Part shown: piece after piece, positions 25,202 through 44,618 of the stretch
Numbering within the stretch: position 1 is the first letter of the stretch
How the letters are laid out: each line of letters begins with the position of its first letter
Assembly: GCA_039832905.1 (NCBI GenBank)
Contig: JBDOLX010000069.1
Coordinates: 1 to 48,054 of the forward strand
DNA length: 48,054 bases
Origin: Desulfurobacteriaceae bacterium
Lineage (GTDB): Bacteria; Aquificota; Aquificia; Desulfurobacteriales; Desulfurobacteriaceae
Direction: 5' to 3'
Position numbers and translations under genes: made by a program
The notes under the pieces: model-generated
The model's input: only the letters and a program-made list of their open reading frames with translations
Databases searched by the model: none
What the model was told of the DNA's origin: nothing

Positions 25202-25354
25202 TAGTATCTGAGAAAAGTGATTCGGGTATTACGAGTAAATAACTAACCAATGTAAGCTGAAACTGAAGATGGTAGTTCCAATATAAGTAGTATTAGTAGT
25301 ATCAACTGTAGGATCCTTTTTAGAACTTTTCACTTAAAGTTTTAGAAAAAGAAT

Positions 25355-26245: not shown

Positions 26246-26304
26246 ATGAGGGGTTGAAGCTTACAGTACGATACTTTAAGGAAAGAATGAAGGAGAATGT
26301 TTAG
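26239..26304 (+). pseudogene. Out-of-frame C-terminal tail of the epimerase
   Basis: In the frame shifted relative to 25355-26245, this stretch encodes SLDEGLK, LTVRYFKERMKENV and a stop. This is the usual C-terminal tail of UDP-glucuronate decarboxylases (compare SLEEGLKKTIEYF-type ends). The stop is directly followed by the ATG of the glycosyltransferase, as expected of an intact ancestral operon. Confidence 0.8.
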
Positions 26305-27645
26305 ATGTTGGAAAATAGTTTTTCGGAGAATTTTATAATAATTACTGTAATTCCTACTATAAATCGTCCTGATAAACTTAAGCGATCTGTAAATTCCGTT
26401 TTAATGCAGAAATACTTTCCTAATGAGATCTTAGTTGTATATGAAAAATATAAATCTAACTATCAGGAAGTAGAAAAAGTTGTTTTCGATTTTCAGAGAT
26501 TTGGAAAGACGAAAGTTTCTCTTATTCCTAATGTAAAAACAAATAACTTGTCTGGGAATATCAATACTGCAATTTTGTATATAAAGAATAAATATAAGGG
26601 TTTAACTGATAGAATAACTGATAGAATATTTGTATCTATTTTGGATGATGATGACGAGTATTTACCTGATTATATCCAAACATGTGTGAATGAAATAAAG
26701 AAAAATACAAACATAGTTGCTGTATTCAGCCCTATAAAGTGGAAAACAAAAGATGGGAGTTGGGTTAATTACATAAAGAAAGAAAATTTAACTCCTAGGG
26801 AGTTTTTCATAGGAAATCCTGGGGTTCAAGGAAGTAATATGTTTATTAAATTTGGTATTCTGGAAAAAATAGGAGGTTTTGATGAGAAACTAATAAGTAC
26901 TACTGATAGAGACTTAATGATACGCTTTTTGAGGTTTGTAGAAAGTTATAACAAAAAAAATAATGAACAAATGTATATAAAAGTTTTAGACAAATCTTTA
27001 GTTATTTATCACGCTGAAGAGGAACATGATAGACTTACCACAAATAAATTTAAAAAAGTGCTAGGATTGAATGCTTTTTATAGAAAATATAGAAGTGACT
27101 TTTCTCAAGAAGATTTTAAAAAGTCACTGGAAAGATCTCGAAAGCTTTTTGGATATGAATATATAAATAGAAAAGGAAAAATAGTAATAGGAATGCCTTT
27201 TAAAGATAATTTTAAGACTGTAGAAAAAGCTGTTAGGTCCGTTTTAAAGCAAAAGAGTTTAAGTAGAGAACTTATTTTATTAATAATAAATGAAGGTTCT
27301 TACAATGATTTAAAAAGGGAAATATCATCCTATTTAGATGATCCTAGACTGATAATACATAGCACTAATATAGGAAAAATAAGTGCTATTAGGAACTATA
27401 TAATAGATTTTGCAATAGATGCTATTCCAGATGTTGAGTATATAGGAAGACTTGACGCTGATGATTGGTTAGTTGATGATTATGTTCTTTCTAGACTAGA
27501 AAAGATTATGGATAAATATAGTCCTGATGTAATCATAGCTGGAAATAAACTGGCTATAGATGGAAAAGTTATAGATAGGATTAATTACGCTGATAAACGA
27601 CTACTAGATTTTAGCTTTTTAGAAAAAAAAAATTGCGTCAGATGA
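26305..27645 (+). CDS. Two-domain family 2 glycosyltransferase, main part (frameshifted at A10)
   Basis: This product carries two tandem GT-A fold glycosyltransferase family 2 domains, probably building a surface polysaccharide or glycan from nucleotide sugars in the cytoplasm. Domain 1 starts with IIITVIPTINRPDKLKRSV and has the metal-binding acidic run ILDDDDEYLPDY (residues 112-123). Its acceptor side contains GGFDEKLISTTDRDLMIRF. Domain 2 starts near residue 290 (IVIGMPFKDNFKTVEKAVRSVL) and has RLDADDWL near 390. The frame closes soon after a run of ten A at 27623-27632. The rest of domain 2 continues in the -1 frame to 27938. It follows the shifted epimerase tail directly. Confidence 0.85.
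   Translation: MLENSFSENFIIITVIPTINRPDKLKRSVNSVLMQKYFPNEILVVYEKYKSNYQEVEKVVFDFQRFGKTKVSLIPNVKTNNLSGNINTAILYIKNKYKGLTDRITDRIFVSILDDDDEYLPDYIQTCVNEIKKNTNIVAVFSPIKWKTKDGSWVNYIKKENLTPREFFIGNPGVQGSNMFIKFGILEKIGGFDEKLISTTDRDLMIRFLRFVESYNKKNNEQMYIKVLDKSLVIYHAEEEHDRLTTNKFKKVLGLNAFYRKYRSDFSQEDFKKSLERSRKLFGYEYINRKGKIVIGMPFKDNFKTVEKAVRSVLKQKSLSRELILLIINEGSYNDLKREISSYLDDPRLIIHSTNIGKISAIRNYIIDFAIDAIPDVEYIGRLDADDWLVDDYVLSRLEKIMDKYSPDVIIAGNKLAIDGKVIDRINYADKRLLDFSFLEKKNCVR
26604..26627 (+). repeat. 12-bp perfect tandem duplication (in frame)
   Basis: AACTGATAGAAT occurs twice in direct succession inside glycosyltransferase domain 1 and encodes the repeated TDRI. It keeps the reading frame. It is a second tandem slippage event in the same cluster as the frame-breaking 7-bp one. 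Confidence 0.85.
27623..27632 (+). repeat. A10 homopolymer at a glycosyltransferase frame break
   Basis: Ten consecutive A lie exactly where the glycosyltransferase reading frame must change by -1 to continue into its conserved C-terminal part. Slippery A runs are known sites of polymerase slippage, of transcriptional slippage, and of -1 ribosomal frameshifting. Confidence 0.9.
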
Positions 27646-27938
27646 GTTTAGGTTTACCTGAAGGTGAACTTCCCTCTTGTAATACTTTTATCAAACCTTC
27701 TGTTGATATTAGATATCAAGATATGGAAAGTGCAGAAGACCATTGGTTTACTGTTGATTTATTGTTAAACCAAGATAAATATGAAATATATATAGCAGAA
27801 AACATATTATATGCAGTATATTCTTTGGATGGATATCTTACCTCTATAAATAAGAAGAAGAATTTATATTTAAAATTCAGAAAAAGGCTTTATAAGTACT
27901 TTCTTAATAAAGTTAGAAAAATTAAATGGGGGCTGTAA
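27633..27938 (+). pseudogene. C-terminal fragment of the two-domain glycosyltransferase
   Basis: These 101 residues are not an independent gene. They contain GLPEGELPSCNTFIKP and MESAEDHWFTVDLLLN, the acceptor-binding half of glycosyltransferase domain 2, whose N-terminal half ends at 27645 in the neighbouring frame. Joining the two at the A10 run by a -1 shift gives one frame of about 544 residues from 26305 to 27938. No convincing ribosome-binding site precedes a separate start. The stop is followed directly by the GTG of the next gene. Confidence 0.8.
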
Positions 27939-28202
27939 GTGGATAGGAGAATGGAAGCACTAAAAATACTAAAAAAATATAGAAATCAAGACTATTATTA
28001 CTTAGGAGAAGGATTTTCAGGAGTTGTTTTTCATGATAATAGATCAGTATATAAAGTTCATATACCTCTCGCAAATAATTCATATGGTGAAAGTGATGGT
28101 TTATTATATTTAAGAGAAAAATTAGATGTTTTTAAAAATTCTAAATATTTCTATGAGGTAGACTTATTTAAAATAGATGATATTTATATCCTTAGATATT
28201 AG
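27939..28202 (+). pseudogene. Kinase-like domain, N-terminal lobe (broken by 7-bp duplication)
   Basis: This is the start of a large multidomain protein. It shows a protein-kinase-like N lobe: glycine-rich loop YLGEGFSGVVF, then VYKVHIP with the probable ATP-contacting lysine. It ends at the hinge with DDIYILRY and a stop created by a tandem duplication of TAGATAT. Removing one copy restores ILRYPYEQGEKV and joins it to the next frame. The GTG start follows the previous stop directly and has GGGGG six bases upstream. The kinase may phosphorylate a sugar or lipid acceptor; this is inference from fold and neighbours only. Confidence 0.75.
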
Positions 28203-29688
28203 ATATCCCTACGAACAGGGTGAAAAAGTAAGAGAAATTTCTGAAAGTGAATTTATTGGATTCTTAACAGAGTGTTGGGAGAAGAAAATTGTCTGTAAAA
28301 GTATAACAAAAGAGAAGAATTTTATAAGAGTTAATGGTGCCTTAAAGTTTATAGATTATGAAATATTACCTTATAGTGATAATCTTTTCTTAAATAGTGC
28401 AGCTAGAGCTTTTATGTATCTAAGGTATAAGAATTTGTCAGAAGAGAAATATAATAGAATAAAGAGAAGTATTATCAATAACTTCCATATAGAAGAAATG
28501 GAAGGATTCAATGAATTTTTAAATAAACTTTTCTTCAACATATCTTTCCATAGAAATAGAACTTTTCTAGAAAATAGAAAGCTGGAAAACTTAGAGAAGT
28601 TAAAGAACCTAGATGAGTCTATTTTCTGGAAGAAATTGGAAAAAGGAGAGTATATAACTGAGGTAATACCGGTCTTTCAAATTGACAATTACCACTTTAA
28701 AACTGAGTTTTTCATAAAAACAAAAAAATTAAATAACTTAAATAAAAGAGTATCCTTGTTGATCAAGACTTGCCCTCAAGAAAGTAAAACGATTTATCAA
28801 CAAGTAAAACATATAGTTAAACAACTATCTTGTCCAGATCTGTTTTTAGAAAAGGTTATAGCAATAGATAAAAAAGAGAAAGATTTCTTAAGGGAATATA
28901 CGAAAGATGGAAGTTTGGAGGAACTTTACAAAGAAATTCAAAAGTTGATAGATGAAGGAATAATTGATTATTATATAGAACTACCTGAAGAAGAAATAGA
29001 GGAAGTAAATTATAGATGGTTCGGTTTGAAGACTAAGGAGACTCACACTATTAACAATATACCTGTGACTCCTCAAGTTTATGCGTTCGAAAAAGTTAAA
29101 GGGGATTACATTCTTCAAATGGATAGCGATGTCTTAATTGGTAGAGAAGACTATAACCATTCATTTCTAGATGATATGATTCGTGCTTTGGAAGAGAATG
29201 AGAATGCAGTATCTGTTGGTTTTAATATTCCAAAAAGTAAAGATATTGTTTTTACGGAATATCATGCCCCTGAAGGTGGATACAAACCAGGAGTCAGATT
29301 TGCATTAATACACAAGAAAAGGCTTTTAAATGCAAGACCTTTACCTAATAAGCTTGTGAAAGGAAGACTAAAATGGGGTTGGTATCATTCTCTACATGAA
29401 TATCAAAAGAAAAATGGTTTAGTTTCTTTAAGAGGCGGGAGTTCAAAATCATATTATATTCATCCCCAAAATTTTAGAAAGCAATGTAAAGATGTATGGT
29501 TTACAATTCTGGATAGGGTGGAAAAAAATATTATTCCAGATATTCAAAGAGAACACTTTGATCTAGAAGGTTCTTTCTACGACTGGACTATACATAAGAG
29601 AAATGAAGAGTTGATAATATTTACAATCTTAGAAGATGGCAAAAAACTAAGTAATTTTTTCAGATTTTTTTACAGTATCTTAAATTAA
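28177..29688 (+). pseudogene. Kinase-like C lobe + GT2 domain + start of second GT2 domain
   Basis: This is the middle piece of the broken multidomain protein. The first 90 residues complete the kinase-like fold (NFIRVNGALKFIDYEI resembles the metal-binding DFG region). The place of the catalytic HRD reads CKS, so catalysis by the usual aspartate is doubtful. A family 2 glycosyltransferase domain follows (VSLLIKTCPQESKTIYQQV, then YILQMDSDVLIGRED with the DxD at 29122-29130). The frame ends at YSILN followed by TAA, where GT2 proteins have the conserved Gln of the SILNQ motif. The next codons, still in frame, encode SFKDYGVIIVNND, the following GT2 strand. The ATG at 28177 lies before the duplication and is probably not a natural start. 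Confidence 0.75.
28193..28206 (+). repeat. 7-bp tandem duplication causing a frameshift
   Basis: TAGATAT is present twice back to back. Seven is not a multiple of three, and the second copy begins with the stop codon TAG that ends the kinase-like frame at 28202. Deleting one copy restores a single frame. Confidence 0.92.
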
Positions 29689-29715
29689 TCCTTTAAGGAT
29701 TATGGGGTTATTATA

Positions 29716-31152
29716 GTGAATAATGATCCTAACCATCTAATAGATAAGATTTTATGGGATTTTTTAAAAAACTTTCCTAATGTTACTTATATTCACAATA
29801 AGTTTAGATTAAAGACTACTCACAATGTATATAAAGCTTTACACTATTTTGTTAGTAATTCTGAAAGTTTTATTTTGTTGGCAAATCCTAATGATTATTT
29901 TTTAGGCGAGAATGTGTTATCTGAAATAATGGAAAGGTTAAGGATGTATAAAGCAGATCTGTTAATTGGAAAGCATGTAGTTACGAGAAATATAGAAAAT
30001 TGTGGGTTGTTTAACGTAAACTTTTTACAAGCTAGGAATGTAGAGAGTAATCTTTATTCTTATGTGAAAGTATTTAAGAAATATTTGTTTGATAGTTTGA
30101 GTATGTATGACTTGAAAAAGGAAAAAGAAACGGGAATTATGTCTAATAACTTTCAAAGGCTAAGTGAAAAGTATGAGTGGTTTGATGATGATGATGAGTA
30201 CACTGCCTTGTTTTCTTTAATAGTAGAGTTAAGCGAAAATCCTATAAGATTTGATTATATTAACTATGTTATTGACTCAAGAGATATCCATAAAGAAAAG
30301 ATTCAATCTTCTATACATATAATTAAAAATAAGCAACCTAGGAATCATAAAAATATCGTAAGAGGTCGAAAGAACTTTATTCCAAATATAAACAAGATAG
30401 AAATAGATATAACTTATGACTGCAATTTAAAATGTTTGGGTTGCAATCGTTCATGTACTCAGGCTCCTTCCAAAGGTGATTATATGGAGATTGAACAGAT
30501 AAAAAGGTTTATAAAGGAAAGTGTAGAACTAGGTCATAAATGGGAACTCATAAATATTTTGGGTGGGGAACCCACCTTGCATCCTCAATTTATAGAAATA
30601 GTTGAACTTATGTTAGAAGAATATATTTGGAAACACTCACCAGAAACTATACTACAAATAACTAGTAATGGATATACGGATCATACAAGAAAATTGTTAG
30701 ACAAGGTTTCACAGTATAAAAATGTGGTCGTTGATAAACTTTCTTTTAAAAATGATAGAAATGTTATCTATTTTACATCATTTAACATAGCTCCGATAGA
30801 TTTAAAAGAATTTAAAAATGCGGAATTTCATAAAGGATGTTGGGTAACTTCTTACTGTGGAATTGGATTAAATAAATATGGAGATTATGCTTACTCCATT
30901 GCAGGAGGAATAGACAGGGTTATAGGGTTTGATCTTGGAATAAAAGCTTTGAAAGATGTCCGATCAGAGAAACTCAAAAAACATTTGGACATATTTTGTA
31001 GGTATTGTGGTAATTTCGTTGAATATGACATAAATAGAGGAGATTTTATTCCTAGATGTGAAAGGGATCGTTTCAAAAATAAAATAACAAAATTTTGGAT
31101 AAGGATTTACAAGAATTACAATAAAAGAAAACCTAAATTAACACATTACTAA
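29716..31152 (+). CDS. Truncated GT2 domain fused to radical SAM enzyme
   Basis: This is the last piece of the broken multidomain protein, 478 residues from a GTG that lies inside a GT2 domain. The N-terminal 210 residues are a GT2 domain lacking its first strands, with ILLANPNDYFLGENVL and an acidic run in EWFDDDDEY. A radical SAM domain follows, with the cluster motif CNLKCLGC (Cys236, Cys240, Cys243), GGEPTLHP and QITSNGY. The C-terminal part has more cysteines (GCWVTSYCGIGL, CRYCGNF, RCERDRF) that could bind an auxiliary iron-sulfur cluster, and GGIDRVIGFDLG. Radical SAM proteins of this look occur in surface-polysaccharide clusters. The domain itself seems intact. Whether it is translated from the GTG is uncertain, as no strong ribosome-binding site is seen. 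Confidence 0.82.
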   Translation: MNNDPNHLIDKILWDFLKNFPNVTYIHNKFRLKTTHNVYKALHYFVSNSESFILLANPNDYFLGENVLSEIMERLRMYKADLLIGKHVVTRNIENCGLFNVNFLQARNVESNLYSYVKVFKKYLFDSLSMYDLKKEKETGIMSNNFQRLSEKYEWFDDDDEYTALFSLIVELSENPIRFDYINYVIDSRDIHKEKIQSSIHIIKNKQPRNHKNIVRGRKNFIPNINKIEIDITYDCNLKCLGCNRSCTQAPSKGDYMEIEQIKRFIKESVELGHKWELINILGGEPTLHPQFIEIVELMLEEYIWKHSPETILQITSNGYTDHTRKLLDKVSQYKNVVVDKLSFKNDRNVIYFTSFNIAPIDLKEFKNAEFHKGCWVTSYCGIGLNKYGDYAYSIAGGIDRVIGFDLGIKALKDVRSEKLKKHLDIFCRYCGNFVEYDINRGDFIPRCERDRFKNKITKFWIRIYKNYNKRKPKLTHY

Positions 31153-31291
31153 TACCTTAGTTTTATACTCTATGATATGATCTTGAAAGAGAAAAACAGC
31201 AACTAGAAAAAATAAGAAACTCTTAGAAAAGGTTATGAGAGGAAATAAGATAAGATATTGTCACCTTTCTTGAAAAGGGAAAAACGATCAT

Positions 31292-31324
31292 TAAAAAAGG
31301 GGAAAAGGGAACGACAAGTTCCCT
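31292..31324 (-). terminator. Terminator of the five-gene envelope operon
   Basis: On the minus strand, a 7-bp stem (AGGGAAC with GTTCCCT, five-base loop) is followed by TTTCCCCTTTTTT. It lies 12 bases past the stop of the last operon gene. The remaining 31153-31291 region shows no gene. Confidence 0.8.
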
Positions 31325-31336
31325 CCTATGAAAAAT

Positions 31337-32563
31337 CTACTCTATTACAATTTCACTACTACCATCTCCTACCTTAATAACCAAGAAAGAACCAGCATCT
31401 AAGACCTTTTCTACTTTTCCAGGGCCATTGTAGAAGTCTTTTAACTTCATGTAAAGCTCAAAAGCATTTGGAACATCTTTTATATAGGCTATATAGCTCA
31501 TCATGGAGTTTCCAGAAGCAAGTCTCTTTACTGGACGCTTTGAAAGTTTTCTGAGAGCCATATAAATAGCTTCATCTACCTTAGGAGCTATTCCTTCTGT
31601 AGTAAAGACCACAAGCTTAAATGGTTTCCCTTTCTTGGCTTCTTTTATCCATTCTTTCTTAATCTGAGAAGTAATTTTGTCTGCAACATCGTTGGCAGCT
31701 TCCTGTACAACAACTTCAGGTGAAGATACTTCTCTTTCTACAGAGTATCCAGTTGAAGCACCAACCAGCTTCCCTGTAGCAGTTTCGTAAGCTTTTACAT
31801 TAACAATAGCTTTGTAGAATGGATGTCCATACTTATATCTTTGATTAACTTTAACACTTACATCAACGTAAATATCACTTCCAAACTGAAGTGCCATAGC
31901 GTACATTGGATCCGCTTTTCCTTCTAAAGTAGCAATCTTTTTGACAATGTTGTTTATTTTTGTTCCTTGTTCTTTAACGTAAACTTCAAAGTCTCTATCT
32001 TGGAGGTATTCTTGAAGTGTTGTTATCGCTGTTAAGGTTTCTGAAGAATCATCTCTTGAAAGAACAGCGATAGTTGGAAGTCCTATTTCTTCAGCAAGAT
32101 CTTCTGTAGACTTTATAACCCCTGCTTCTTGAAGTTTTTCAGTTAGACCGTTAACGTCAACTTTAAATAAGTAAGTAAGGAGAATAAAGTTTCCTTCTTT
32201 TCTTTTACTTTTGACGTCGCTTTGCCATCTTATGTACTGATCTGGATTTTGAAGAATTTCTTTCACTATGCTTTCAGCTTTTCTTTTCTCTTCTGGAGTT
32301 TTCAAAATAGGTCTGTCTCCAGCGTAGAGAACGTACCAAATAGCAGCTTTCTTAGCGTCTCTTGTTGCCTGTTCAAAGGTGCAACCTTTACCAGTTGCTC
32401 TTATTAAGCTCTCGCCGGTTGTGGTGCTTTCGACAAAGCTTGCTTGTTTTGAGAGAGGTTCTACAGTTAGTGGCATTTTGCAAACGGGTTCTCCGCAAGA
32501 GGAGAGATAGAAAAGTGCGAGAGTAGAAACTCCCGCAAGAGCTAATTTATTTGTTAATTTCAT
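31337..32563 (-). CDS. Exported lipoprotein, FlgT/LPP20-like
   Basis: I do not recognise a named gene. The N-terminus is a lipoprotein signal with lipobox LSSC (Cys23). A first domain (about residues 45-145) resembles the LPP20/FlgT N-terminal fold, with RATGKGCTFEQATRDAKKAA. The second part (from about residue 165) starts PTIAVLSRDDSS and continues with AMALQFGSDIYVDVSV and AYETATGKLVGASTGYS, a pattern seen in CsgG/TolB-like and flagellar FlgT-type alpha/beta domains. A repeat of the first type may close the protein. It is the last of five co-directional envelope genes, suggesting a role in an outer-membrane-linked assembly. Confidence 0.7.
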   Translation of the reverse strand: MKLTNKLALAGVSTLALFYLSSCGEPVCKMPLTVEPLSKQASFVESTTTGESLIRATGKGCTFEQATRDAKKAAIWYVLYAGDRPILKTPEEKRKAESIVKEILQNPDQYIRWQSDVKSKRKEGNFILLTYLFKVDVNGLTEKLQEAGVIKSTEDLAEEIGLPTIAVLSRDDSSETLTAITTLQEYLQDRDFEVYVKEQGTKINNIVKKIATLEGKADPMYAMALQFGSDIYVDVSVKVNQRYKYGHPFYKAIVNVKAYETATGKLVGASTGYSVEREVSSPEVVVQEAANDVADKITSQIKKEWIKEAKKGKPFKLVVFTTEGIAPKVDEAIYMALRKLSKRPVKRLASGNSMMSYIAYIKDVPNAFELYMKLKDFYNGPGKVEKVLDAGSFLVIKVGDGSSEIVIE

Positions 32564-32574
32564 CTTTCACCTCT

Positions 32575-34422
32575 TTATTTGGTTTTTTCTACTTTCATTC
32601 TACATACTGTAGAAGGTTTCTTGTAAAGTTTTACAAAAGGACCAACAGTCTTTATGTGGTAATTTATTCCTACACCGAAAGTAAGTCCTCCAGAAACTTC
32701 TGCATCAACATCTACATCACCTCGTTTTGCAGATGTTGAAAGTGGTTGATTCCAGCCAAGGTATCCTGCAATTTCGAAGTTAGGAGAGAAGTTATAACCA
32801 AACTGGACTTGAGGTTTTATTGCAAAGGAAGATACGCTAATATCTTCTCCATCGTAGAGTAAATATGTTTGATTTCCTTTAGCACTTAAACCTTCCAACG
32901 CAAATTCAGCACCTGGCGCGAGGTAAAGTCCAAAATTTCTAATATAAAATCTTTTGTAAAGTCCTAGCCCTAGAGTTAAATAACTTGGATCATCAGTAAA
33001 TGCAGAACCATTTCCTTCAAACTGAAGTGCATCTCCTCCAAATCCCAGTCCAAAGTTAACATCAAACCAAATTTCAGAAAGAAGAGGGCTGTTAACTGCA
33101 TATCCTAAATCTAGGGTAGCTCCAAGTTTTACAACTGTAAACATTCCACCGCCGGCAGAAAGATCTTCATCATCAAATTTGGTAACTTCATAATTTTCCA
33201 TTCCTACTCTTGTGTAGATAAAAAGACCTGTCCAAGGATGTTCTTTTAGTTGGTCTTTAAGTTCGGCTTTTCCTTTTATAAGTTGGAACTCGCTTTCTCC
33301 CCTTTCATCACAGTTTACAAAGACTTTACGTGCTTTTACAAAACCTACTGTTTCGATTTTCCCATCAATATTTTCTCTAACGAGATAAGGTGCATCAACT
33401 CTTAAGTCTTCTAAGACTCCAATATCTGCCTTTACGGTTGTTCCATTAACATCGTCTACAGTAGCGAATATTGCGAAGTTATCATCTTCTTTCAAAGTAG
33501 TATTTACATTTATTCCTGTAGCCTTTGCGGAAGTTAAGATACTTCTCTTAAATAAGAATTCTGTTTCGGTGTTTGTTGGACGGTGATCATATGTGTAGCT
33601 TTCTCCTGTTCCAAGTCCAGAAGAACCGTCTAGCTCCTTATAAAGAACAAACTTTCCTTTATCAGCATCAAATTTAAAGATGATTACTTTTACTTTTGAA
33701 GGAACCTCTATGGTTGTTGGATAAACTATCTTATAGCCTCTGGACGTTCTTATTTTTTGCGTACTATAGGTTGCTGAAGGATTTACAGGTTCAAAGTATA
33801 CACCGAAAACGAAAGCTGAATTCATAAGTTTTTTGGCAACTTCTACTGGTATTCCAAGTTCCTTAGCTTTTTCTGTTATAAATGTTTCTTGTTCAGTTTC
33901 TGGAAGTTCTTGGTATCTTTGTTCTAATGCGGAAGACATTAGTTTTTCTACAACAGGAGAAAGATCTTCGTTTAAGTAGTTTTCAAGACTTGCTTTAAAA
34001 TCTTCATAGTTTCCTGTGTCAAAAGAAAAAGTTTTCATCACGTTGTTATCAACACCTATTTTCTCCTTAGCGGTTATTATGTAAGCCTTCGAAGGAGTAA
34101 TAACTACCTTGTCAAACCTTTGGGTGATTAGCCAGTCGTAAAGTTCCTTGGCAATTTCATTTTCAAGATTCTGATCTATAGTGTAGTACCATGTTCCTCT
34201 GCTTTGGCATCTACCTCTTGGAGGGCAATAAGTAACTGGAACTTGTAGATCTCTTTTTGGAAGTCCTAAATCGAGACCTAAAACAGCTTTTCTTTCGTAT
34301 TTCTTTTGTGTTTCATCTGACTGAACAAGGCTTTCATCTTCTACAGCCCATGAGGAGCTGTTTAGTGCTATAATGGTTGTAAGTCCTAAAAGAAGTTTTA
34401 GTGTTGTTCTTGTTCTTTTCAT
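32575..34422 (-). CDS. Exported protein with C-terminal outer-membrane beta-barrel
   Basis: I do not recognise this 615-residue protein. It has a cleavable signal peptide ending near NSSSWA. A periplasmic N-terminal part of about 390 residues contains a Cys pair (YCPPRGRC). The last 200 residues alternate polar and hydrophobic residues with glycines and aromatics (LTLGLGLYKRFYI, IKPQVQFGYNF, GLTFGVGINYHI), as in outer-membrane barrels. It ends in a short lysine-rich tail rather than the usual aromatic residue, which is unusual for barrel insertion. It is encoded between the PEGA protein and the FlgT-like lipoprotein, 19 and 11 bases away. Confidence 0.65.
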   Translation of the reverse strand: MKRTRTTLKLLLGLTTIIALNSSSWAVEDESLVQSDETQKKYERKAVLGLDLGLPKRDLQVPVTYCPPRGRCQSRGTWYYTIDQNLENEIAKELYDWLITQRFDKVVITPSKAYIITAKEKIGVDNNVMKTFSFDTGNYEDFKASLENYLNEDLSPVVEKLMSSALEQRYQELPETEQETFITEKAKELGIPVEVAKKLMNSAFVFGVYFEPVNPSATYSTQKIRTSRGYKIVYPTTIEVPSKVKVIIFKFDADKGKFVLYKELDGSSGLGTGESYTYDHRPTNTETEFLFKRSILTSAKATGINVNTTLKEDDNFAIFATVDDVNGTTVKADIGVLEDLRVDAPYLVRENIDGKIETVGFVKARKVFVNCDERGESEFQLIKGKAELKDQLKEHPWTGLFIYTRVGMENYEVTKFDDEDLSAGGGMFTVVKLGATLDLGYAVNSPLLSEIWFDVNFGLGFGGDALQFEGNGSAFTDDPSYLTLGLGLYKRFYIRNFGLYLAPGAEFALEGLSAKGNQTYLLYDGEDISVSSFAIKPQVQFGYNFSPNFEIAGYLGWNQPLSTSAKRGDVDVDAEVSGGLTFGVGINYHIKTVGPFVKLYKKPSTVCRMKVEKTK

Positions 34423-34441
34423 TTTCTACCTCCTCCTCTTT

Positions 34442-36448
34442 TTATTTTAATTCCACTTTTATTGTTGTTATTTCCTTGGCAATGCTCTCTGGAACATAAC
34501 CAGAAAGATTTACAGGTTCCTTCCAGTCAAGGATTAGATAAAAGTTTGTATCTTTAAGTGTTGGGAGGTGGAATTTTAAGTATCTATCAAAAGGACTATC
34601 GTTTATTTCACTAAATTCAAGAGGGTGAACATCTGCTATAGATGGATAAGAGAAGCCTCCATCCCATCTATACTTTGCTCCAACGAGAGTAAGTTCATCT
34701 TTATCTTTAAAGGAAATTTCTAAGACTTTTTTCCTTAGAGTTCTATCAATTTCTTTTGCCAAAGATTCACAAGTTTTTCTGTCCATAGAAAATACAAAAC
34801 TCCAGATTTCGGAAGTTTTTAAAATATTTTTTATTCCTAAGAAAAATGTGCATTGGTAATCTTTGGTATTGCTTACTGGAACATCTCTTTCTTGCTTTTT
34901 AGCTATCGCTGATAGATAACTTTTAACTTTTCTTAAAAGACCTTTCGGATAACCTATTGAGAAACTTAACTTAATAAAGTATCTTTTATCTCCATAAGGA
35001 TTTTTCTTTAAAATCTCTCCAGTTTTTATGTTAATGTACTGCTTTAAAAAATGATCTGGTTTGTATATCTCATAGTTTAAATTCTCGATCTTAACACTGT
35101 TTAACAAGAAGCTCACAAGTTGCTTTGGAGAAAATTCCTCTTTTTCAGTATTAGTACTTTTACTTTCCATTCTCGTACTTGTTAAAGTTTTTATCTTAAA
35201 AAGAGGTCTATAGTCAAAGTCTTCTTCTCCTTTAAACTTTTCTGCGTCAAGTTGATTTATAAGTTTTTTTAGAATAGCAGATAAAAGCTTGTTGCTTTTT
35301 TTCTGTAAGATAACTTTTTCAGTTTCAAGCGTTGTGTAGAAAGGTTTCATTCTTCCTGAAAGGGTTAAAACAACCTTTCCTTCCTTGTAGGCTTCAACGG
35401 TTATGTTGATTGAATGTTTTGTGTATCCATCAATTTCTGTCTTTGTGTCCTTGAACTTTATAAGGATTGCGTTGGGTGATATAGGGAAAGGAGAAACCTC
35501 TAAACCACTCTTTGTGAGAATTGCTTTTGCTTCTTCTACCAAAAATGGAACGTTGGAATGAACGAAAACTTTCACTCTGCCCTTTACAATCTTTTGAAGT
35601 TCTACGGTTTTTGAAACTTTATCTCCTCTTGATAGAAAAACTGTAAAAGTTTCTGTTTTGTATCCTGGAGCACTTACCTTTACAAGGTATTCTCTTTGGG
35701 GAGGAAGTAGAATAGGAGTAAAAGGTTTGTAACTTTTTCCATTTACAAAAATGGAAGCATTTTCAGGTATTGTATTGATGGTAAGCATTCCATAATTTAG
35801 GTAAGTGTTTATTTCTTCTACTTTTTTCTTTACAAAGTTTACTATTTCTTTTCTGTTATTTGACAGGTAAGCTATAGAAAGAAGATAGTAAGCTTTGGTT
35901 AAGAGCTCTTTTAACTGGTTTTTGTTGAGTTTCGCGAAATCTACTTCTAAGCTTGTTTTTAAAAAGTCTATTGTTGCTTTTAGAGAATCTTCTGTGAAGT
36001 AAGCACATACCTTGTAATTGCCGTTTTCAAAGAGAGGTTTTGAAAGTAGGACGCCCTTTAGGAAAGATTCTGATTTCAAAGTTGAAGTTGACTTGTATTT
36101 TCTTGAAGTTCTGCCGTTTATTCTTTTTCTTTCTAACTGTGTTTCTGTTTCAACTTTTACCAAAATTTGTTCTGAGAGCTCTTTAAGGGCACTTACTCTT
36201 GCTTCTTTTGGAGTTTTCCCAAAACCACAGGCATTAAGTAGAACTTTCACTTTTTTTCTTTTATAGATTAAAACTTTTTCATTTTCAGGATCTACCGAAA
36301 AATCTTTTGGAGGTAAATTGGTTTCTTCAAGTTCCTTGAAAGCTTTTTGTGCCTTTTTTTCTTCAAAAAGAATTTTCTCATCTATAGGGGCTGCGTAACA
36401 AGAAGTAATGATCAAAAGCATTAAAAATGTTAAAAGTTCTCTTTTCAT
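34442..36448 (-). CDS. Exported LPP20-like protein with PEGA domain
   Basis: No known gene name. The N-terminus MKRELLTFLMLLIITSCYAA is an export signal, possibly a lipoprotein one (TSC, Cys17). Residues 65-165 resemble LPP20 (LNACGFGKTPKEARVSALKELSEQI). A PEGA domain lies at about 220-287 (MLTINTIPENASIFVNG, then APGYKTETFTV), a fold found in envelope proteins that bind glycans or other surface parts. The remaining 380 residues are mixed alpha/beta; I cannot assign them. The start ATG has GAGGTGAG upstream, three bases after the preceding gene. Confidence 0.72.
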   Translation of the reverse strand: MKRELLTFLMLLIITSCYAAPIDEKILFEEKKAQKAFKELEETNLPPKDFSVDPENEKVLIYKRKKVKVLLNACGFGKTPKEARVSALKELSEQILVKVETETQLERKRINGRTSRKYKSTSTLKSESFLKGVLLSKPLFENGNYKVCAYFTEDSLKATIDFLKTSLEVDFAKLNKNQLKELLTKAYYLLSIAYLSNNRKEIVNFVKKKVEEINTYLNYGMLTINTIPENASIFVNGKSYKPFTPILLPPQREYLVKVSAPGYKTETFTVFLSRGDKVSKTVELQKIVKGRVKVFVHSNVPFLVEEAKAILTKSGLEVSPFPISPNAILIKFKDTKTEIDGYTKHSINITVEAYKEGKVVLTLSGRMKPFYTTLETEKVILQKKSNKLLSAILKKLINQLDAEKFKGEEDFDYRPLFKIKTLTSTRMESKSTNTEKEEFSPKQLVSFLLNSVKIENLNYEIYKPDHFLKQYINIKTGEILKKNPYGDKRYFIKLSFSIGYPKGLLRKVKSYLSAIAKKQERDVPVSNTKDYQCTFFLGIKNILKTSEIWSFVFSMDRKTCESLAKEIDRTLRKKVLEISFKDKDELTLVGAKYRWDGGFSYPSIADVHPLEFSEINDSPFDRYLKFHLPTLKDTNFYLILDWKEPVNLSGYVPESIAKEITTIKVELK

Positions 36449-36451
36449 CTC

Positions 36452-37570
36452 TCACCTCGCAACAACACCAACGTATAAAACTCCATTCTTTTTATATATA
36501 CCAACGATTTTTGCCGATACTTCCTGACAGGTTTTTGTCTTTGTATCTACGTAAGTAAGCTTAAAAGTTCCAAAAGGATTTCTTCCTATTTTCCTAAAAA
36601 TGGAAGTGTTTATCCTTATTCCCTTTACTTTTGCCATTTCTACAAGTGCCTTTTTCAAGGCTGTTTTTAGTTGTCCTTTAAATCCGTTAAGGTTTTTCTT
36701 TGCAATACCAACATAGACGTATTCTCCTAAACAATCTGGATCGTCTATCCAGCAAGGTTTCTCTGAATTTAGCTTTTTGGTTGGAATGTCCGGTGATATA
36801 AGATAAACGAAAAGATTTCCTTCTTTATCAAAACATAAAGATCTTACCAAGAAGCGTAAAGAATTCTTTTTCCCCGTTGGAGTTACTACAGCGTCTTTTA
36901 GATAAAGTTTAAAAGAAGTTAATCTGGTCCTTATAACTTTTTTTACCTCTTTACTTTCAACTTTTGCATTATAAGAGTATAAGAAGAGATCCAATGCTCT
37001 TTTTACAGCGATTGAGTATTGTTCCTTAAATGTTGGAGCTTTGAATGCTACTCCTAAGCTTCCTACATAACCTTCAACGGTAGGGTTGCATAAGTACTTA
37101 GGTTTACACAATTCTAAAGAACAGATTTTTGCATCTTCAAAGTATGGGAAGTCTTTCTTTTTCTCTTTATAGGCGTAAGCAACGAAAATTTTACTGGAGT
37201 AACCAGGTATTTTTATTTTCTTGGTTTCAAATTTTATTCCTTCTTGAGAAGAAACGTTTTCAAGCTTTGTCTTTAGGACTTTAAGACTTTTTGATGAAAG
37301 ACTTTGAAATTGGGATGGACAAAAGAAAGGAGGATTTTTATTTTCCAAGTTAAGAAGGCTGTAAATAGCACGGCACTTTGCTAAAAACAGCGAATAATCA
37401 TTACCGTAAAAGCTTTTGTCTGAAAAACCAAGAGCTCCCAAGTGGGAAACATCGGCAGGCTCAAAGAACCACTTTGGGAGCTCTGCGGTATAAAGAGGCG
37501 TTGTTTTAACCTCACGACAACCAAGAGTGAGGAAACTTAGCAAAAACAGAAGAATAAGATTTTTCTTCAA
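36452..37570 (-). CDS. Lipoprotein with repeated LPP20-like domains
   Basis: This 372-residue protein has a lipobox LTLGC (Cys18). Three segments share the LPP20 pattern of a Trp/aromatic loop, a Gly-rich strand and a long helix: PKWFFEPADVSHLGALGFS near residue 32, VEGYVGSLGVAFKAP near 165, and PCWIDDPDCLGEYVYVGIA near 272. Several cysteines in the mature part (ICSLELCKPKYLC and others) could form disulfides. LPP20-type lipoproteins include the flagellar outer-membrane protein FlgP, but no flagellar gene is visible here. It sits in the five-gene envelope operon. Confidence 0.7.
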   Translation of the reverse strand: MKKNLILLFLLSFLTLGCREVKTTPLYTAELPKWFFEPADVSHLGALGFSDKSFYGNDYSLFLAKCRAIYSLLNLENKNPPFFCPSQFQSLSSKSLKVLKTKLENVSSQEGIKFETKKIKIPGYSSKIFVAYAYKEKKKDFPYFEDAKICSLELCKPKYLCNPTVEGYVGSLGVAFKAPTFKEQYSIAVKRALDLFLYSYNAKVESKEVKKVIRTRLTSFKLYLKDAVVTPTGKKNSLRFLVRSLCFDKEGNLFVYLISPDIPTKKLNSEKPCWIDDPDCLGEYVYVGIAKKNLNGFKGQLKTALKKALVEMAKVKGIRINTSIFRKIGRNPFGTFKLTYVDTKTKTCQEVSAKIVGIYKKNGVLYVGVVAR

Positions 37571-37579
37571 CTCTATACC

Positions 37580-38182
37580 TTACTTTGTGGTTTCTTTCTC
37601 AAGTTCCTGCTGAGCTTTGTAAGCTTTAAACTCTTCGTATAAGATTTCTTCGTCTCTTGGGTTGTTTAGATTTGCTTTTTGAGCAATTTCGTGAATCATC
37701 TCTTTAACAACTTGAGGCTGTAATCCTACGACAGCACAGGCTACAAACTGTCCATCTTGAGTTCTAAAGGTCTTATACTTAAGAGGTCTACTTCCTTCCA
37801 AGTACTTATCAGCTACTTGTTTTGCAACGTCTTCAAAAGTGCTACCTATGTATCTTTTCTTGCCTGCAACGGTTCTATTCTTGTATCTTTTTACCATGTT
37901 TTTAACTCTTATTCCCAATATTCTTGCAAGTTCACTTCTTGCATCTGCAACAGCTTCTTCCCTTGCATACTGAGCTTCTTCAATGCTTTGAGCAAAGTTA
38001 CATTTACAAGCAGCAATTCCACCTTCTAGATTGCTGTACTCTGAACAAAAGTCGTCCCAGGGGGTAGAGAATTCTATTGCATTCATAGAAGTTTTAGGCT
38101 CTTCTTTCTTTCCTCCACATCCAAAGACTCCAAAGGACATAGCTATCAGTCCTGCCATTCCAAGAACAAGTTTCCTTCTCAT
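37580..38182 (-). CDS. LPP20-family lipoprotein, single domain
   Basis: This is the first gene of the envelope operon. The lipobox is VFGC (Cys22), followed by a Gly/Lys/Glu-rich spacer. One LPP20 domain follows: CKCNFAQSIEEAQYAREEAV, then ARSELARILGIRVKNMV and VACAVVGLQ. The tail is charged and helical. The 200-residue size matches LPP20/FlgP lipoproteins. GGAGGG lies just before the ATG. The 165-base upstream region (38183-38347) has a promoter candidate near its far end. Confidence 0.8.
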   Translation of the reverse strand: MRRKLVLGMAGLIAMSFGVFGCGGKKEEPKTSMNAIEFSTPWDDFCSEYSNLEGGIAACKCNFAQSIEEAQYAREEAVADARSELARILGIRVKNMVKRYKNRTVAGKKRYIGSTFEDVAKQVADKYLEGSRPLKYKTFRTQDGQFVACAVVGLQPQVVKEMIHEIAQKANLNNPRDEEILYEEFKAYKAQQELEKETTK

Positions 38183-38330
38183 CTTTCCCTCCTTCGTTTA
38201 GGATTAAAGGTGGAGTGTTATTTCAAAGACCCCTCGGGTTATTCTTTTCAGCAATTTTATAATTGTATCATCTGTAGGTTGGTTTCTTTTTTGTATTTCA
38301 TAATACCCTCACTCAAAATTACCAGAATTA

Positions 38331-38360
38331 ATTATAATAGAAACCCTCTAAAAAAGTAAA
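38331..38360 (-). promoter_or_regulatory. Candidate promoter of the five-gene envelope operon
   Basis: On the minus strand, TTTACT and a perfect TATAAT are 18 bases apart, overlapping the end of the upstream barrel gene. The leader would be about 140 bases. No terminator is seen between the barrel gene and this point, so read-through is also possible. Confidence 0.4.
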
Positions 38361-39349
38361 GCTAAAGATACAAAAGGTCCTGAAAATTTGCTTTCAGCTC
38401 TGGCATAAATGTAAATATCGTCCTCCTTAGCTGTTTCTAAAACAAAATCAGAGTATCTGTATCCTATCTTACATGTAAAAATTTTAGGAAATACAGATTT
38501 TAGTAGTTTATTATCTACTTTAGATTTTTTGGAAAATAAGATACCAAACTCTATTTCGTAAAAGTAACCTTTTCCTCCTTGTAGATATTCTGATTCATTA
38601 GCTTTTTCTACATTTTCACTTTTAGGTTCCAACTTTAAAACATATCCCCCAATTACTTTTCCAAAAAAGTTTAAAAAGCCTTTTTGATTCTCTACTTTTT
38701 CTACAGTAAGAGTAAGAAAATGTGCTTTCCAGTTCATATTGGGTTCGACGAAGCGATATAGTTCTTTGTTGGATCCTATGACATATAAAGTTTGTGGTAG
38801 AGTGTAATCCATAAACCTATATCCAGCTCCTAACGCTAAACCTTCTTTATTAAAGAAAGGATAAAAAGTAATATCTCCTATATTTAGTTCTGTGCTAAAC
38901 TTAACAAATCCTTCATTTAAAGTGTCAGGATCTATTGAGGTAGAATAGCCTTCTGTTTTTGAATGGATATATGACGCTCTTGATGCCATTCCCTCCCACT
39001 CTATTCCTATAAATCCAAGAATTTTGGAAAGTTTCTGTTCTGTAGAGAGTGCTGTTGTTAGTTCTTCATCTTTTTTAGTGAATATATACTTTATTCCTCC
39101 TTTTACTCTATGCCATGATCCGCTTACTGCCACTTCCTTTGCAAAAGAGTTCTTTATAGTAAAACGATGGTAGATATCGTTTTCTATATCCTGGTTGTTG
39201 GGACTATCATCCTGTTCCCAATGTAAATACCAAGTTCCTAAGGTAAACTCAAGAGTTTGAGATTTTCCATATAAAGGTGTAAAAAGAAACATAAGAAAAA
39301 GAATTTGTAGAAAGACATAAAGCCTTCCTCTATATCCATTTTTCTTCAC
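38348..39349 (-). CDS. Outer-membrane beta-barrel protein
   Basis: I do not recognise a family for this protein. It has a signal peptide ending near LYGKS, then 300 residues of alternating strands with aromatic girdle residues (EFTLGTWYLHWEQ, FVSLALLF). It closes with a terminal Phe, the usual outer-membrane insertion signature. Long loops contain SENVEKANESEYLQGG. It lies 11 bases after the large surface lipoprotein gene, with which it is surely co-transcribed. It could be an exporter or anchor for that lipoprotein; this is inference from context alone. Confidence 0.72.
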   Translation of the reverse strand: MKKNGYRGRLYVFLQILFLMFLFTPLYGKSQTLEFTLGTWYLHWEQDDSPNNQDIENDIYHRFTIKNSFAKEVAVSGSWHRVKGGIKYIFTKKDEELTTALSTEQKLSKILGFIGIEWEGMASRASYIHSKTEGYSTSIDPDTLNEGFVKFSTELNIGDITFYPFFNKEGLALGAGYRFMDYTLPQTLYVIGSNKELYRFVEPNMNWKAHFLTLTVEKVENQKGFLNFFGKVIGGYVLKLEPKSENVEKANESEYLQGGKGYFYEIEFGILFSKKSKVDNKLLKSVFPKIFTCKIGYRYSDFVLETAKEDDIYIYARAESKFSGPFVSLALLF

Positions 39350-39360
39350 TACTGCCCCCT

Positions 39361-42300
39361 TTACTCTTCTTCTTTAGTGAGAGAAAATTTGTAGTGGGTG
39401 TCGTAGTTATTTTCTCTATAGATTTTCAATATATAAGTTCCTGGTTCGGAAATGGTATAAGTACAACTTCCTGTTTTTCCAATATTGCCATCCACACGAC
39501 AATCTGAATTATAAAATTTTGTAATGAGTTGGTAGTAACCCCAAGATTCTGTACCATCTAAAATTGATATGGTAAGTACATATTTTCCAGGTGTTGTGAT
39601 TTTAACTTCATAGTAGTCTACGGTATCAAAACCAACGCCAACCCAATTCTCTATCTCTTCCCCTATTTTTATAGGAGTTGCAAGATTAGGTGTATTATTT
39701 GGCTCCCCTTTAGCATCCTGTTTTAAGCCATTATCTACACTTGGATAAACTTCCAGAGCATAATAAGTATCGCACCAACTTTCTCTATAAACTTTTATTT
39801 TGTAATTTCCACTTTCCTTAGGTGTGAAATCGAACCAAGTTTGACAATTTGTACATTCACCATCAATAGATCCTTTTGCAATTTCTGAACCAGAAGGAGA
39901 GTAAATCTTTGCCCAAAGTTCGGCTCCCCAACAACTTTCTGTCCCTGAGTATGTTCTTAGTCTTACAGTATAAGTCTTATCTTTTTCAAGGTTTTTAAGA
40001 TCATACCAATCGTAAGGATCAGCTCCTACGCCTACATCAGCCTTTATCTCTTGTAAGAGCTCCAGAGGAGTTGCCATATATTCACTGTCATTCGGTTCTC
40101 CATTAACGTCCTGTTTGAGTCCATTGGTTATGGATGGATAAATGATGAATCTGTAATATGCATCACGGTTGTAGTCAGAGTAAATTTTTATGTAGTAATT
40201 TCCTGTAGTTTTAGCTTCAAATGAAAATACAGACCAGCCGATTCTATAAAGCCTAGTGGAACCTACTTCTGATCCTGAGGGATCATAGACTCTAAAGTAC
40301 ACATTGTTGTAGTCGTATGTTCCACTTAAAGTTTGAAATTTTACTGTGTAGTATCCTTTAGTAGTAATAGAAAGCCTATACCAATCGACGTAGTCGTGTT
40401 TCCAAATGTTTACATCCGAGTAAACAGCCTGCCCAAGCTTAATCTCATATGCTGTTGCCTTTACATCGTTTGGTTCAAGGGTGTTTCCATCCCAGGCAAT
40501 ACTACTTAAAAGATTACCGTCTTTATCTTTTACATCCCATCCGGGGAATAAAGCAATTTTTACATACTCTTTTCCTGAATAAGAAGAGTAGCGATTTTTA
40601 GGAATAAGCTTTAATTCATAGTCTGTCTCTTTGTCCAGAACTTCAAGCTGATAATAGGTATTTCCATCATCATACGAATTTCTATATCCGTCTGCATATA
40701 TCTCACTACGGGTATAACTTTCAGAAATAATATCTTTATCATCAAATATAAGTATTTCATATTTTCCTAGTTCTAAATTAGTAAGTTTTACTGTGTAGGT
40801 TTTATCTACTTTTACTTGGCGTATTTCTCCTGGACTTAAAGTATAAGTCCCATTATCATCAGTTTTCAGGTTATCTATAACACGTACTGTAATGTAGAAC
40901 TCGTAGAGAGGATTACCATTTTCATCCTTTTCTTGAGAGTAAACTCTAACCTTTGTAGTTCCTGCTTTTACAGCATAAATGATGCCATTACTGTCTACTG
41001 TAGCAACGCTTTCATCTAAGGATTCATAAAGAAGTGTTTTATCTGTGGTAGCTATAGGAATTTGATAAGTTGACGGGAGATCTATTCCATCTTCTGTAGT
41101 ATAAAGTTTAATTGTTCCAGCATCTGGAGCTTTTAGCCACACTAAATCCATAGGGTTCACTTTTATATAGAAGGTCTTTACGGTTTTTAGTCCATGCTCA
41201 TCTTGGACTTCCAAAGTAATAGTATGTGTTCCAGGAATTAAAACTTTTTGGAGATTTTCATTATCTCCTAAGTCTCCTTGTAGATCGGAGAACCATCTTA
41301 TAGTAACGTTATCAGAATCTGGGTCTGTTATTGAAGTATTTATTACAACCTCTTCATTAGCTTTATACTCTTTAGGATATTGGTTGTTTGTTATATCTGT
41401 TTCGGCTGGAGAAATAACTGTAATTTCGGGGTAATGGTTTACTTTAAAGGAAATAGTTTTAGAAGTAGTACGGGCATTACTTTTTGCTTTTACGACGATA
41501 GAATAAATTCCCCCTTCATCGGGAGATTTCCATGTAGCTTTTCCTGCAGTAGGATCCATAGCTATGAATTCTCCAAATTCAGAGTCAAATTCGTAAGTAA
41601 CATTATCTCCGTCCGGATCAACAGCCAATACTTCTATATTAACGGTATTACCAGGATTGAGGAAGTAATTGCCATTCTCATCTTGGGTAACATTTTCTGT
41701 AAGAGAATAAACATTTACAACTTTAAATTCAGGTGGATTAGGATCTACATATGTAATCTCGATAGGAGTGTCTATAGTTAAAGTCTCTCCAACAGAAAGA
41801 CTTCCTAATTCTTTCACTATTGTATTGATAAGATTTCCATCTTTATCGCTTCCATAAACTTTTATATAGTAATCGTTTCCAACAGGCACATTTTGAATAG
41901 TAAAGCTGAAAGTTCCATTTACTATATCTCCTATAGGAGAGTAAGTTGTTACAACGTTGCCAGTGCTATCTAATATGTCAATTTTGAGGTTTTCCAAACC
42001 TTCAAAATCTTCTGGAAGCTTTATAGTTCCTTCTACTGTTCCGGTTAATCTATGTAGAATGATAGGATCTTCTAATACAGTTGTAACACCTGCTATTACT
42101 TCGATTTCTTCCGTAGTAACTTCCTCGTAGGATGAGTCTGAAGATTTTCCAAAGTGGAGTCTATATTTACCTTCGGGGAGACCTGTTATTAAGAAAGCTC
42201 CATCTATTAAGGAACCATTCTGCTTTGTTTCAAATTCTCCGTCAAGCCTTTCTACTGTAATATCTATACCGGCATGTTCGGTAGAATCAGAGAAGTAAAC

Positions 42301-43335
42301 GTAACCTGCTATTGCTCCGGTTGTTTCGGATGGAGATAAGAATATAGTTCCTAAATCTTTACTGAGAGATGATAAGTCTATGTTTTCGACAGTTTTAGGT
42401 ATAAAACCTTCTTTTTTTATAAGGACTGTATAAGTTCCTTTAGCTAAATTTGTAAACTTAAAGTACCCATTATCATCTGTAATAGCTAAAAGATAATTGT
42501 CCTTATCCGGTTTTAGAAAAACTAGGGCATTCTGAATAGGATTACCCGTAGAATCTATAACTTTACCAGTAAGGGATCCTTCAAATACTAGATCATCAAG
42601 AGATATGGTTACATTCTGAGTTTCATTTCCTACAGAAACATATCTACTTAACAGCACATTTCCATTTATATCAGAAAGCGTAAGAAAATACCTTCCCTCT
42701 GGAATTCCTTTAATTATAACGTCTTCTCCTGTGGGGATTCTTTGATAAAGGTCTAAAGAGTTAATGTTTAACCAAACTTCTGAGAATCGGTTAGTTAGGA
42801 CTTTAATAGAAAAGTCGTATAAAGGTTTTAGTTCTATCTCTCCTAAATCAACAGTTTCTCCCTTTTTAACAGCAATATCGTTTATTTGAACCCCATATCC
42901 ATCTTCACTTTTGTAGGATATAGAGGCGTCTGCAGTAGGAGGAACGTTAGTAATTACCCAGGTACCATCTTCTTCTTCTTGTTTAATGTTAGATTCGCTG
43001 ACTTTTAAAGCAGCACTTATAGCCTGAGCTATTTTATCAGGAGTTGCTATTAAACCCCCAGAAGCTTCATACTCGTAGGATCTTTGGATATTTGGAGTTA
43101 CAAACTTTACTTTAATGGTACCTCCTTCCCTTTCTATTTCAGTAGAGGAGGTGATTTCATTGGAACTTGTGCTAGAACTGTAAGATGTAGTTGTAGTGTC
43201 GCTACTAGTACTAGTGGTATCTTGGTAGGTCGTTTGAGTAGTATCTGAATTAGAATTTGTAGAAGTTTCAACAGAACATCCTACTATGAAAGATAAAAGA
43301 AATACGAGAAAAATTGTTTTCAGATTTTTTCCCAT
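39361..43335 (-). CDS. Large multidomain surface lipoprotein
   Basis: This 1324-residue exported lipoprotein has lipobox IVGC (Cys20). A low-complexity Ser/Thr linker follows (residues 21-68). Carboxypeptidase-regulatory-like domains lie near 253-335 (LTGKVIDSTGNPIQNALVFL) and 340-428. Cadherin/Ig-like domains span about 560-725 (VDPDGDNVTYEF and DPDSDNVTIRW). A Big2-like domain is near 750-818 (LDESVATVDSNGIIYAVKAG). At least three pre-peptidase C-terminal (PPC)-like units follow, starting with EPND or EPNN near 954, 1073 and 1204. No peptidase or enzyme core is visible, so it is more likely adhesive or structural. Its start overlaps the transglycosylase gene by 16 bases, with GGGAGG inside that gene as ribosome-binding site. 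Confidence 0.82.
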   Translation of the reverse strand: MGKNLKTIFLVFLLSFIVGCSVETSTNSNSDTTQTTYQDTTSTSSDTTTTSYSSSTSSNEITSSTEIEREGGTIKVKFVTPNIQRSYEYEASGGLIATPDKIAQAISAALKVSESNIKQEEEDGTWVITNVPPTADASISYKSEDGYGVQINDIAVKKGETVDLGEIELKPLYDFSIKVLTNRFSEVWLNINSLDLYQRIPTGEDVIIKGIPEGRYFLTLSDINGNVLLSRYVSVGNETQNVTISLDDLVFEGSLTGKVIDSTGNPIQNALVFLKPDKDNYLLAITDDNGYFKFTNLAKGTYTVLIKKEGFIPKTVENIDLSSLSKDLGTIFLSPSETTGAIAGYVYFSDSTEHAGIDITVERLDGEFETKQNGSLIDGAFLITGLPEGKYRLHFGKSSDSSYEEVTTEEIEVIAGVTTVLEDPIILHRLTGTVEGTIKLPEDFEGLENLKIDILDSTGNVVTTYSPIGDIVNGTFSFTIQNVPVGNDYYIKVYGSDKDGNLINTIVKELGSLSVGETLTIDTPIEITYVDPNPPEFKVVNVYSLTENVTQDENGNYFLNPGNTVNIEVLAVDPDGDNVTYEFDSEFGEFIAMDPTAGKATWKSPDEGGIYSIVVKAKSNARTTSKTISFKVNHYPEITVISPAETDITNNQYPKEYKANEEVVINTSITDPDSDNVTIRWFSDLQGDLGDNENLQKVLIPGTHTITLEVQDEHGLKTVKTFYIKVNPMDLVWLKAPDAGTIKLYTTEDGIDLPSTYQIPIATTDKTLLYESLDESVATVDSNGIIYAVKAGTTKVRVYSQEKDENGNPLYEFYITVRVIDNLKTDDNGTYTLSPGEIRQVKVDKTYTVKLTNLELGKYEILIFDDKDIISESYTRSEIYADGYRNSYDDGNTYYQLEVLDKETDYELKLIPKNRYSSYSGKEYVKIALFPGWDVKDKDGNLLSSIAWDGNTLEPNDVKATAYEIKLGQAVYSDVNIWKHDYVDWYRLSITTKGYYTVKFQTLSGTYDYNNVYFRVYDPSGSEVGSTRLYRIGWSVFSFEAKTTGNYYIKIYSDYNRDAYYRFIIYPSITNGLKQDVNGEPNDSEYMATPLELLQEIKADVGVGADPYDWYDLKNLEKDKTYTVRLRTYSGTESCWGAELWAKIYSPSGSEIAKGSIDGECTNCQTWFDFTPKESGNYKIKVYRESWCDTYYALEVYPSVDNGLKQDAKGEPNNTPNLATPIKIGEEIENWVGVGFDTVDYYEVKITTPGKYVLTISILDGTESWGYYQLITKFYNSDCRVDGNIGKTGSCTYTISEPGTYILKIYRENNYDTHYKFSLTKEEE

Positions 43336-44579: not shown

Positions 44580-44618
44580 AAATCCCTCCATCTATCTTCT
44601 TCATTATTTATTTTAACG

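Follow-up and report, generated by a model that had tools for sequence, protein, structure and literature searches.

A Desulfurobacteriaceae gene module encoding FlgT-like folds, LPP20-type lipoproteins and a lytic transglycosylase as a candidate outer-membrane-associated assembly

The nearest characterised relatives of the locus described here are the flagellar H ring (PMC7693769) and the FlgP disk, in which ring-forming FlgP is marked by a hairpin insert between the SHS2 helix and the second strand (PMC12222027), together with clusters of Lpp20-LpoB type in Helicobacter and Campylobacter (PMC11394524, PMC11756786, PMC3100323). The locus lies in a contig (JBDOLX010000069.1) of a heat-loving Desulfurobacteriaceae bacterium (GCA_039832905.1); the whole stretch analysed, 48,054 nucleotides, is referred to as the window. 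At its centre are five contiguous minus-strand open reading frames (ORFs), here A to E, which span exactly 31337-38182 with intergenic gaps of 3-19 bp and are ordered A, B, C, D, E in the direction of transcription. The original prediction had described these ORFs as an envelope operon dominated by LPP20- and FlgT-like folds, and they are present as described, contiguous and on the minus strand. The best reading is that they encode an assembly of FlgT/LPP20-type outer-membrane proteins. More specifically, A-E together with an MltC-like lytic transglycosylase would constitute an outer-membrane-associated periplasmic assembly of FlgT/LPP20/CsgG-type domains, most likely an H-ring-like ring or collar specified apart from the canonical flagellar ring genes, a reading that is held tentatively and at somewhat below even confidence. 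The features concerned are as follows.

31337..32563, minus strand: E, FlgT-like three-domain lipoprotein of 408 aa, PF19672/DUF6175 (Pfam, AlphaFold2, Foldseek)
32575..34422, minus strand: D, 615 aa, FlgT-like periplasmic part (about 45-390) and 8-stranded outer-membrane barrel (about 400-590) (AlphaFold2, Foldseek)
34442..36448, minus strand: C, 668 aa, LPP20-like, PEGA and third domain (Pfam, orthologue lengths)
36452..37570, minus strand: B, 372-aa lipoprotein containing two to three LPP20-like units (hhalign chain)
37580..38182, minus strand: A, Lpp20-type lipoprotein of 200 aa (PF02169, profile to 5OK8, invariant Cys22)
43320..44591, minus strand: MltC-like SLT lytic transglycosylase of 423 aa (Pfam, catalytic motif)

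The likeness to the H ring comes from the predicted structures of D and E. An AlphaFold2 model of E built from 12 homologues (predicted local distance difference test, pLDDT, 84.9) gave 8z5n (FlgT in the LPHT ring, 1.9e-7) and 3w1e (FlgT crystal, 6.6e-7) as its two best solved structures in Foldseek, followed by smaller envelope proteins including PelC, GNA1162, LptE and CsgG. A model of D built from 11 homologues (pLDDT 82.6, predicted TM-score 0.81) contained an 8-stranded barrel and best matched the same two FlgT entries (9.6e-7 and 1.8e-6, respectively), along with the barrels TtoA, NspA, OmpW and OmpA. The identity of the 8z5n chain as FlgT was inferred from its length and from the ranking of 3w1e alongside it in both searches. 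On its model, D thus appears to join a FlgT-like part in the periplasm to an 8-strand outer-membrane barrel; no description of such an architecture was found in the literature searched, which also held nothing on DUF6175, nor on LPP20 with a lytic transglycosylase or with Aquificota. At the sequence level E matched PF19672 (DUF6175) with E 1.1e-12 and 48.1 bits against a cut-off of 23, as did 12 of 12 E homologues. The FlgT likeness of D and E is one of modelled folds, and common descent is not demonstrated. The folds were of the kind that the original prediction had proposed to look for; it had called the fifth product a beta-barrel protein, which the model of D bears out, and had overlooked that D is also FlgT-like.

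The remaining three proteins supply the LPP20-type component. A alone matched PF02169 (LPP20) with E 8.4e-4 and 20.2 bits, below the curated cut-off of 25.9 bits, and the profile of its 11-member family matched Helicobacter pylori Lpp20 (5OK8) with E 4.6e-9; Cys22 is invariant in 11 homologues. With its LPP20 domain and lipobox, A is, as judged from sequence, a member of the Lpp20 lipoprotein family (PF02169). The Pfam scan gave no family for B. When B was cut in three, hhalign gave 69% for B1-B2, 77% for B2-B3, 88% for B3-A and 70% for B2-A, the maximum over 40 control runs with reversed profiles being 10%. This profile chain supports the triple LPP20 pattern that had been predicted for B, with B1 reached only by way of B2; compared directly with A or B3, B1 gave no match, and its recognition as an LPP20 unit without the link through B2 was rejected. 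C matched PEGA (E 2.9e-9) and, weakly, LPP20 (E 0.01), the latter at E 0.0046 in a gammaproteobacterial orthologue. The C orthologues are about 365-430 aa long, and the C of the window carries a C-terminal extension of ~250 aa (residues about 410-668; 34442-35220) absent from all orthologues found. The LPP20- or FlgT-like patterns noted earlier were thus recovered, A being Lpp20-type, C combining LPP20 with PEGA and E being FlgT-like with a PelC/CsgG-type middle domain. Export, previously assigned to four of the five products, stands for A, B, C and E, whose sequences have lipobox-like motifs, and extends to D with a plain signal peptide, so that all five carry export signals.

The unit reaches further than five genes, to about 44.6 kb, and comprises eight genes on the minus strand; 5' of A the order is the MltC-like gene, an Ig-type lipoprotein gene and a barrel-protein gene. 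The original prediction had stopped at five genes and had overlooked the transglycosylase. The MltC-like protein matched SLT (9.1e-27) and Mltc_N (1.4e-5), and its catalytic motif ESSFNP...AYGLMQI is intact in sequence, including the catalytic Glu motif. It resembles Escherichia coli MltC in this SLT motif and the Mltc_N match but differs from it in having no lipobox in its first 45 residues and in being encoded inside the unit. A strong relative (E < 1e-60) was present in nine of the 11 A-bearing genomes of the first survey, mostly directly beside A.

The grouping is conserved, even across phyla, and the five-gene order itself is limited to 4 genomes among the Aquificota. In a related genus (g7), three genomes keep MltC-A-B-C-D-(FecR-like)-E, the MltC gene reading as two ORFs in one of them (G008); in this genus a FecR-domain protein of ~240 aa lies between D and E (L038:12446-13168, L039:12484-13215, L040:1596-2327), which the window does not have. 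Of 136 Aquificota genomes, 9 have E, as do 5 of the 245 genomes examined from the class to which the Balneolales examples belong. Among Gammaproteobacteria, D-E-C is present in two Marinospirillum and one Thiomicrospira, and the core of A, MltC and D-E-C recurs in Balneolales. D-E-C or A-E adjacency is held in Aquificota, Gammaproteobacteria and Balneolales. In genome G265, A, D-E, MltC and a protein at the position of C lie within about 10 kb; the last is LPP20-like, its orthology to C not being shown. The E tree splits cleanly by phylum, which argues against a recent mobile accident.

In two genomes (G058 and G059) the companions of A and MltC are different proteins that match CsgG and FlgT_C, with FlgT_N- or LptE-like ones nearby; judged by their domain matches, the same parts from different genes fill the same place. 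Loci of other Aquificota (L047, L050, L051 and L052) hold an A-type Lpp20 with CsgG/FlgT_C- and FlgT_N-like proteins, a second cluster type whose FlgT-like members are better recognised by Pfam.

Compared with the Vibrio-type H ring (FlgT, FlgO and FlgP), the module is alike in that FlgT is the best solved fold of D and E and LPP20/SHS2-type lipoproteins stand alongside, but it has neither sequence-profile similarity to FlgT nor flagellar genes among its scanned neighbours, and it adds the barrel of D, the PEGA domain of C and a dedicated lytic transglycosylase. Marinospirillum carries a canonical flgP-flgT pair at a separate locus, so that D-E-C is an additional, separate system there and the two coexist. 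The module resembles the hp1454-hp1457 cluster of H. pylori and cj0089-cj0091 of Campylobacter jejuni (PMC3100323) in that its periplasmic lipoproteins are clustered and include one of Lpp20 type, and that a connection to peptidoglycan is proposed (PMC11394524); the accessible portions of these reports contain no FlgT-like barrel protein, and the LpoB-like partner (PF13036) found there was not matched in the window, only in the G058 and G059 clusters. With the oligomers of CsgG/PelC outer-membrane lipoproteins it shares the fold of the middle domain of E; E differs from them in having three domains instead of one and, in the window, no CsgG assignment (PF03783).

The H-ring-like reading starts from the domains and export signals of the proteins, their predicted folds, the linkage of their genes and the conservation of the module across phyla; complex formation, ring shape and function are inferred from these. 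It is favoured because D and E, modelled separately (pLDDT 82-85), each have FlgT as their best solved match, because A is an Lpp20 relative and B contains LPP20-like units, because D-E-C or A-E adjacency persists in three lineages and the G265 cluster, and because A and MltC stand beside different genes with the same parts in G058/G059 and Marinospirillum has its own flgP-flgT. A ring or channel formed by the module proteins, as originally suggested, is plausible but hypothetical. The barrel of D would anchor a FlgT-like platform to the outer membrane, on which the lipidated, three-domain FlgT-like E and the lipidated LPP20-PEGA protein C could assemble, while the Lpp20-type lipoproteins A and B would add a lipid-anchored layer. 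The MltC-like enzyme may open or remodel peptidoglycan locally where the assembly is built, and the resulting ring or collar would keep outer membrane and peptidoglycan in register around an envelope-crossing structure. To our knowledge, FlgT-type rings are known only from flagellar motors; if the reading is true, FlgT-type rings and H-ring parts would fall within a broader class of assemblies that span the envelope, and the combination of two FlgT-like proteins (one of them barrel-fused), LPP20 lipoproteins and a peptidoglycan cutter would give DUF6175 its first functional context. Marinospirillum, which is cultured and carries the canonical flgP-flgT, offers an internal comparison for D-E-C.

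Several observations weigh against an H-ring-like assembly. Whole-chain TM-scores of D and E to FlgT were low (0.15-0.28), so that either the domain arrangement differs or only parts match; neither protein matched the FlgT Pfam models (FlgT_N/M/C), and hhalign against canonical FlgT gave 0.6%, that is, no sequence-profile similarity of D or E, whereby sequence homology to FlgT was rejected as undetectable by profile comparison. The middle domain of E is of PelC/CsgG type and also resembles GNA1162 and LptE, so that FlgT is not the sole candidate analogue. The alignment of A with Lpp20 is almost gap-free over the hairpin region and, as an alignment of sequences, gives no sign of the FlgP hairpin insert. 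Genus g19 has D at a distance from E-C and lacks a close relative of MltC. That the module is an outright non-flagellar FlgT-type ring machine, a barrel-anchored, peptidoglycan-piercing collar of D-E-C with A, B and the MltC-like enzyme spread over three phyla, is possible but rather doubtful.

It is less likely that the module is instead an accessory ring of the flagellum, a so far unrecognised variant of the H ring or basal disk in some polar flagella, with genes that merely lie at a distance from those of the flagellum. The FlgT-like folds of D and E would fit such a ring, as would FlgI, which all carriers tested possess, two Balneolales included, apart from a 76%-complete metagenome-assembled genome; outside the 61-genome set this amounts to seven of eight further carriers. 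In G046 flgJ-flgI-flgH-like genes are found about 4.5 kb away from an A-B'-MltC cluster, and H. pylori Lpp20 binds FlgP and FapH although its loss leaves motility unaffected (PMC11756786). Within the 61 surveyed genomes, however, FlgI was present in 52 as against A in 11 and E in 6, most flagellated relatives being without the module, and the association with FlgI was not significant (p 0.19 for A and 0.58 for E). Simple tracking with flagella, which the original prediction had proposed to check, was set aside as not significant. The statement of that prediction that no flagellar gene is nearby holds for the Pfam-scanned genes of the window, none of which is flagellar, and the possession of flgP-flgT by Marinospirillum likewise speaks against a flagellar role. 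No FlgT_M match was obtained in the host genome (G000) or in G008, G013 and G016. The host has two distinct flagellar gene sets, on contigs C40 (L084) and C64 (L085), each with FlgI and hook or rod-type genes, and its congener (G002) has one FlgI.

A ringless envelope-maintenance cluster similar to hp1454-1457 or cj0089-0091, whose lipoproteins would regulate peptidoglycan synthases and hydrolases and stabilise the outer membrane, is improbable. It would account for A as an Lpp20 relative, for a lytic transglycosylase inside the unit and for the LpoB/CsgG matches in the equivalent G058 and G059 clusters, and one study ties the LpoB-like HP1457 and HP0018 to peptidoglycan remodelling and MltD (PMC11394524); yet no window protein matched LpoB (PF13036) in Pfam, the barrel-fused FlgT-like D is left unexplained and an occurrence in 9 of 136 Aquificota genomes is thin for a housekeeping function. 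Least probable is a CsgG/PelC-type outer-membrane apparatus for the export or anchoring of the 1324-aa Ig lipoprotein or a surface glycan. PelC, CsgG and GNA1162 are the next-best folds for E, homologues of the Ig lipoprotein and of the barrel protein next to it are found with the module in G016 and with A-MltC in G059, and glycosyltransferase-type genes adjoin within the same stretch that is missing from the congener. However, most carriers lack the Ig gene, with matches in 4 of 61 genomes, the CsgG Pfam model matched one of 12 E homologues (E 0.063), and the barrel of D has only 8 strands. An 8-strand barrel is too narrow for a protein pore.

Further features of the unit and its surroundings are listed below.

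31303..31327, minus strand: terminator-like hairpin 3' of E (consensus scan only)
38331..38360, minus strand: sigma-70-like site, 10/12 match, at the start of the 165-bp gap before A (consensus scan only)
38348..39349, minus strand: exported probable beta-barrel protein of 333 aa, partner of the Ig lipoprotein (adjacency)
39361..43335, minus strand: large Ig-type lipoprotein of 1324 aa with CarboxypepD_reg, PKD, Big and PPC domains (Pfam)
44623..44643, minus strand: terminator-like hairpin upstream of the unit, after an aminotransferase gene (consensus scan only)
25096..44647, no strand: stretch absent at the syntenic site of congener G002 (flanks at G002 87548-88690 and 89151-89723)

The two terminator-like hairpins, which are consensus matches, bracket the eight genes of the unit; sigma-70-like sites in the region were no more frequent in the consensus scan than in shuffles. 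The Pfam scan gave no family for the 333-aa barrel protein, whose gene adjoins the Ig homologue in G016 and G059 too.

The stretch missing from the congener is ~19 kb long and holds the unit, and the difference may be due either to gain by the host or to loss by G002. Neither the eight unit genes nor the genes at 26305-31152 had a G002 counterpart beyond a generic SLT domain. The unit has a GC content of 0.33-0.37, like the backbone, and only the 25-31 kb region is low. Recent foreign import of the unit was rejected on this GC content and on the agreement of the E tree with phyla, a plasmid origin as E had no tblastn match in 72,556 plasmid records, and a tRNA-borne island as no tRNA occurs in the window. 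On the plus strand, 25355-31152 (GC 0.27-0.30) encodes an NAD-dependent epimerase, a family 2 glycosyltransferase, a 503-aa protein and a radical SAM protein; the 503-aa protein had no Pfam match, and it, the glycosyltransferase and the radical SAM protein had no counterpart in G002. There, the flanking aminotransferase (window 44648) and flavin reductase (window 24511) genes are 460 bp apart, and the site of the 19-kb stretch is occupied by one small gene (L098:8730-9152), named from its sequence by eye as FKBP-type peptidyl-prolyl isomerase-like.

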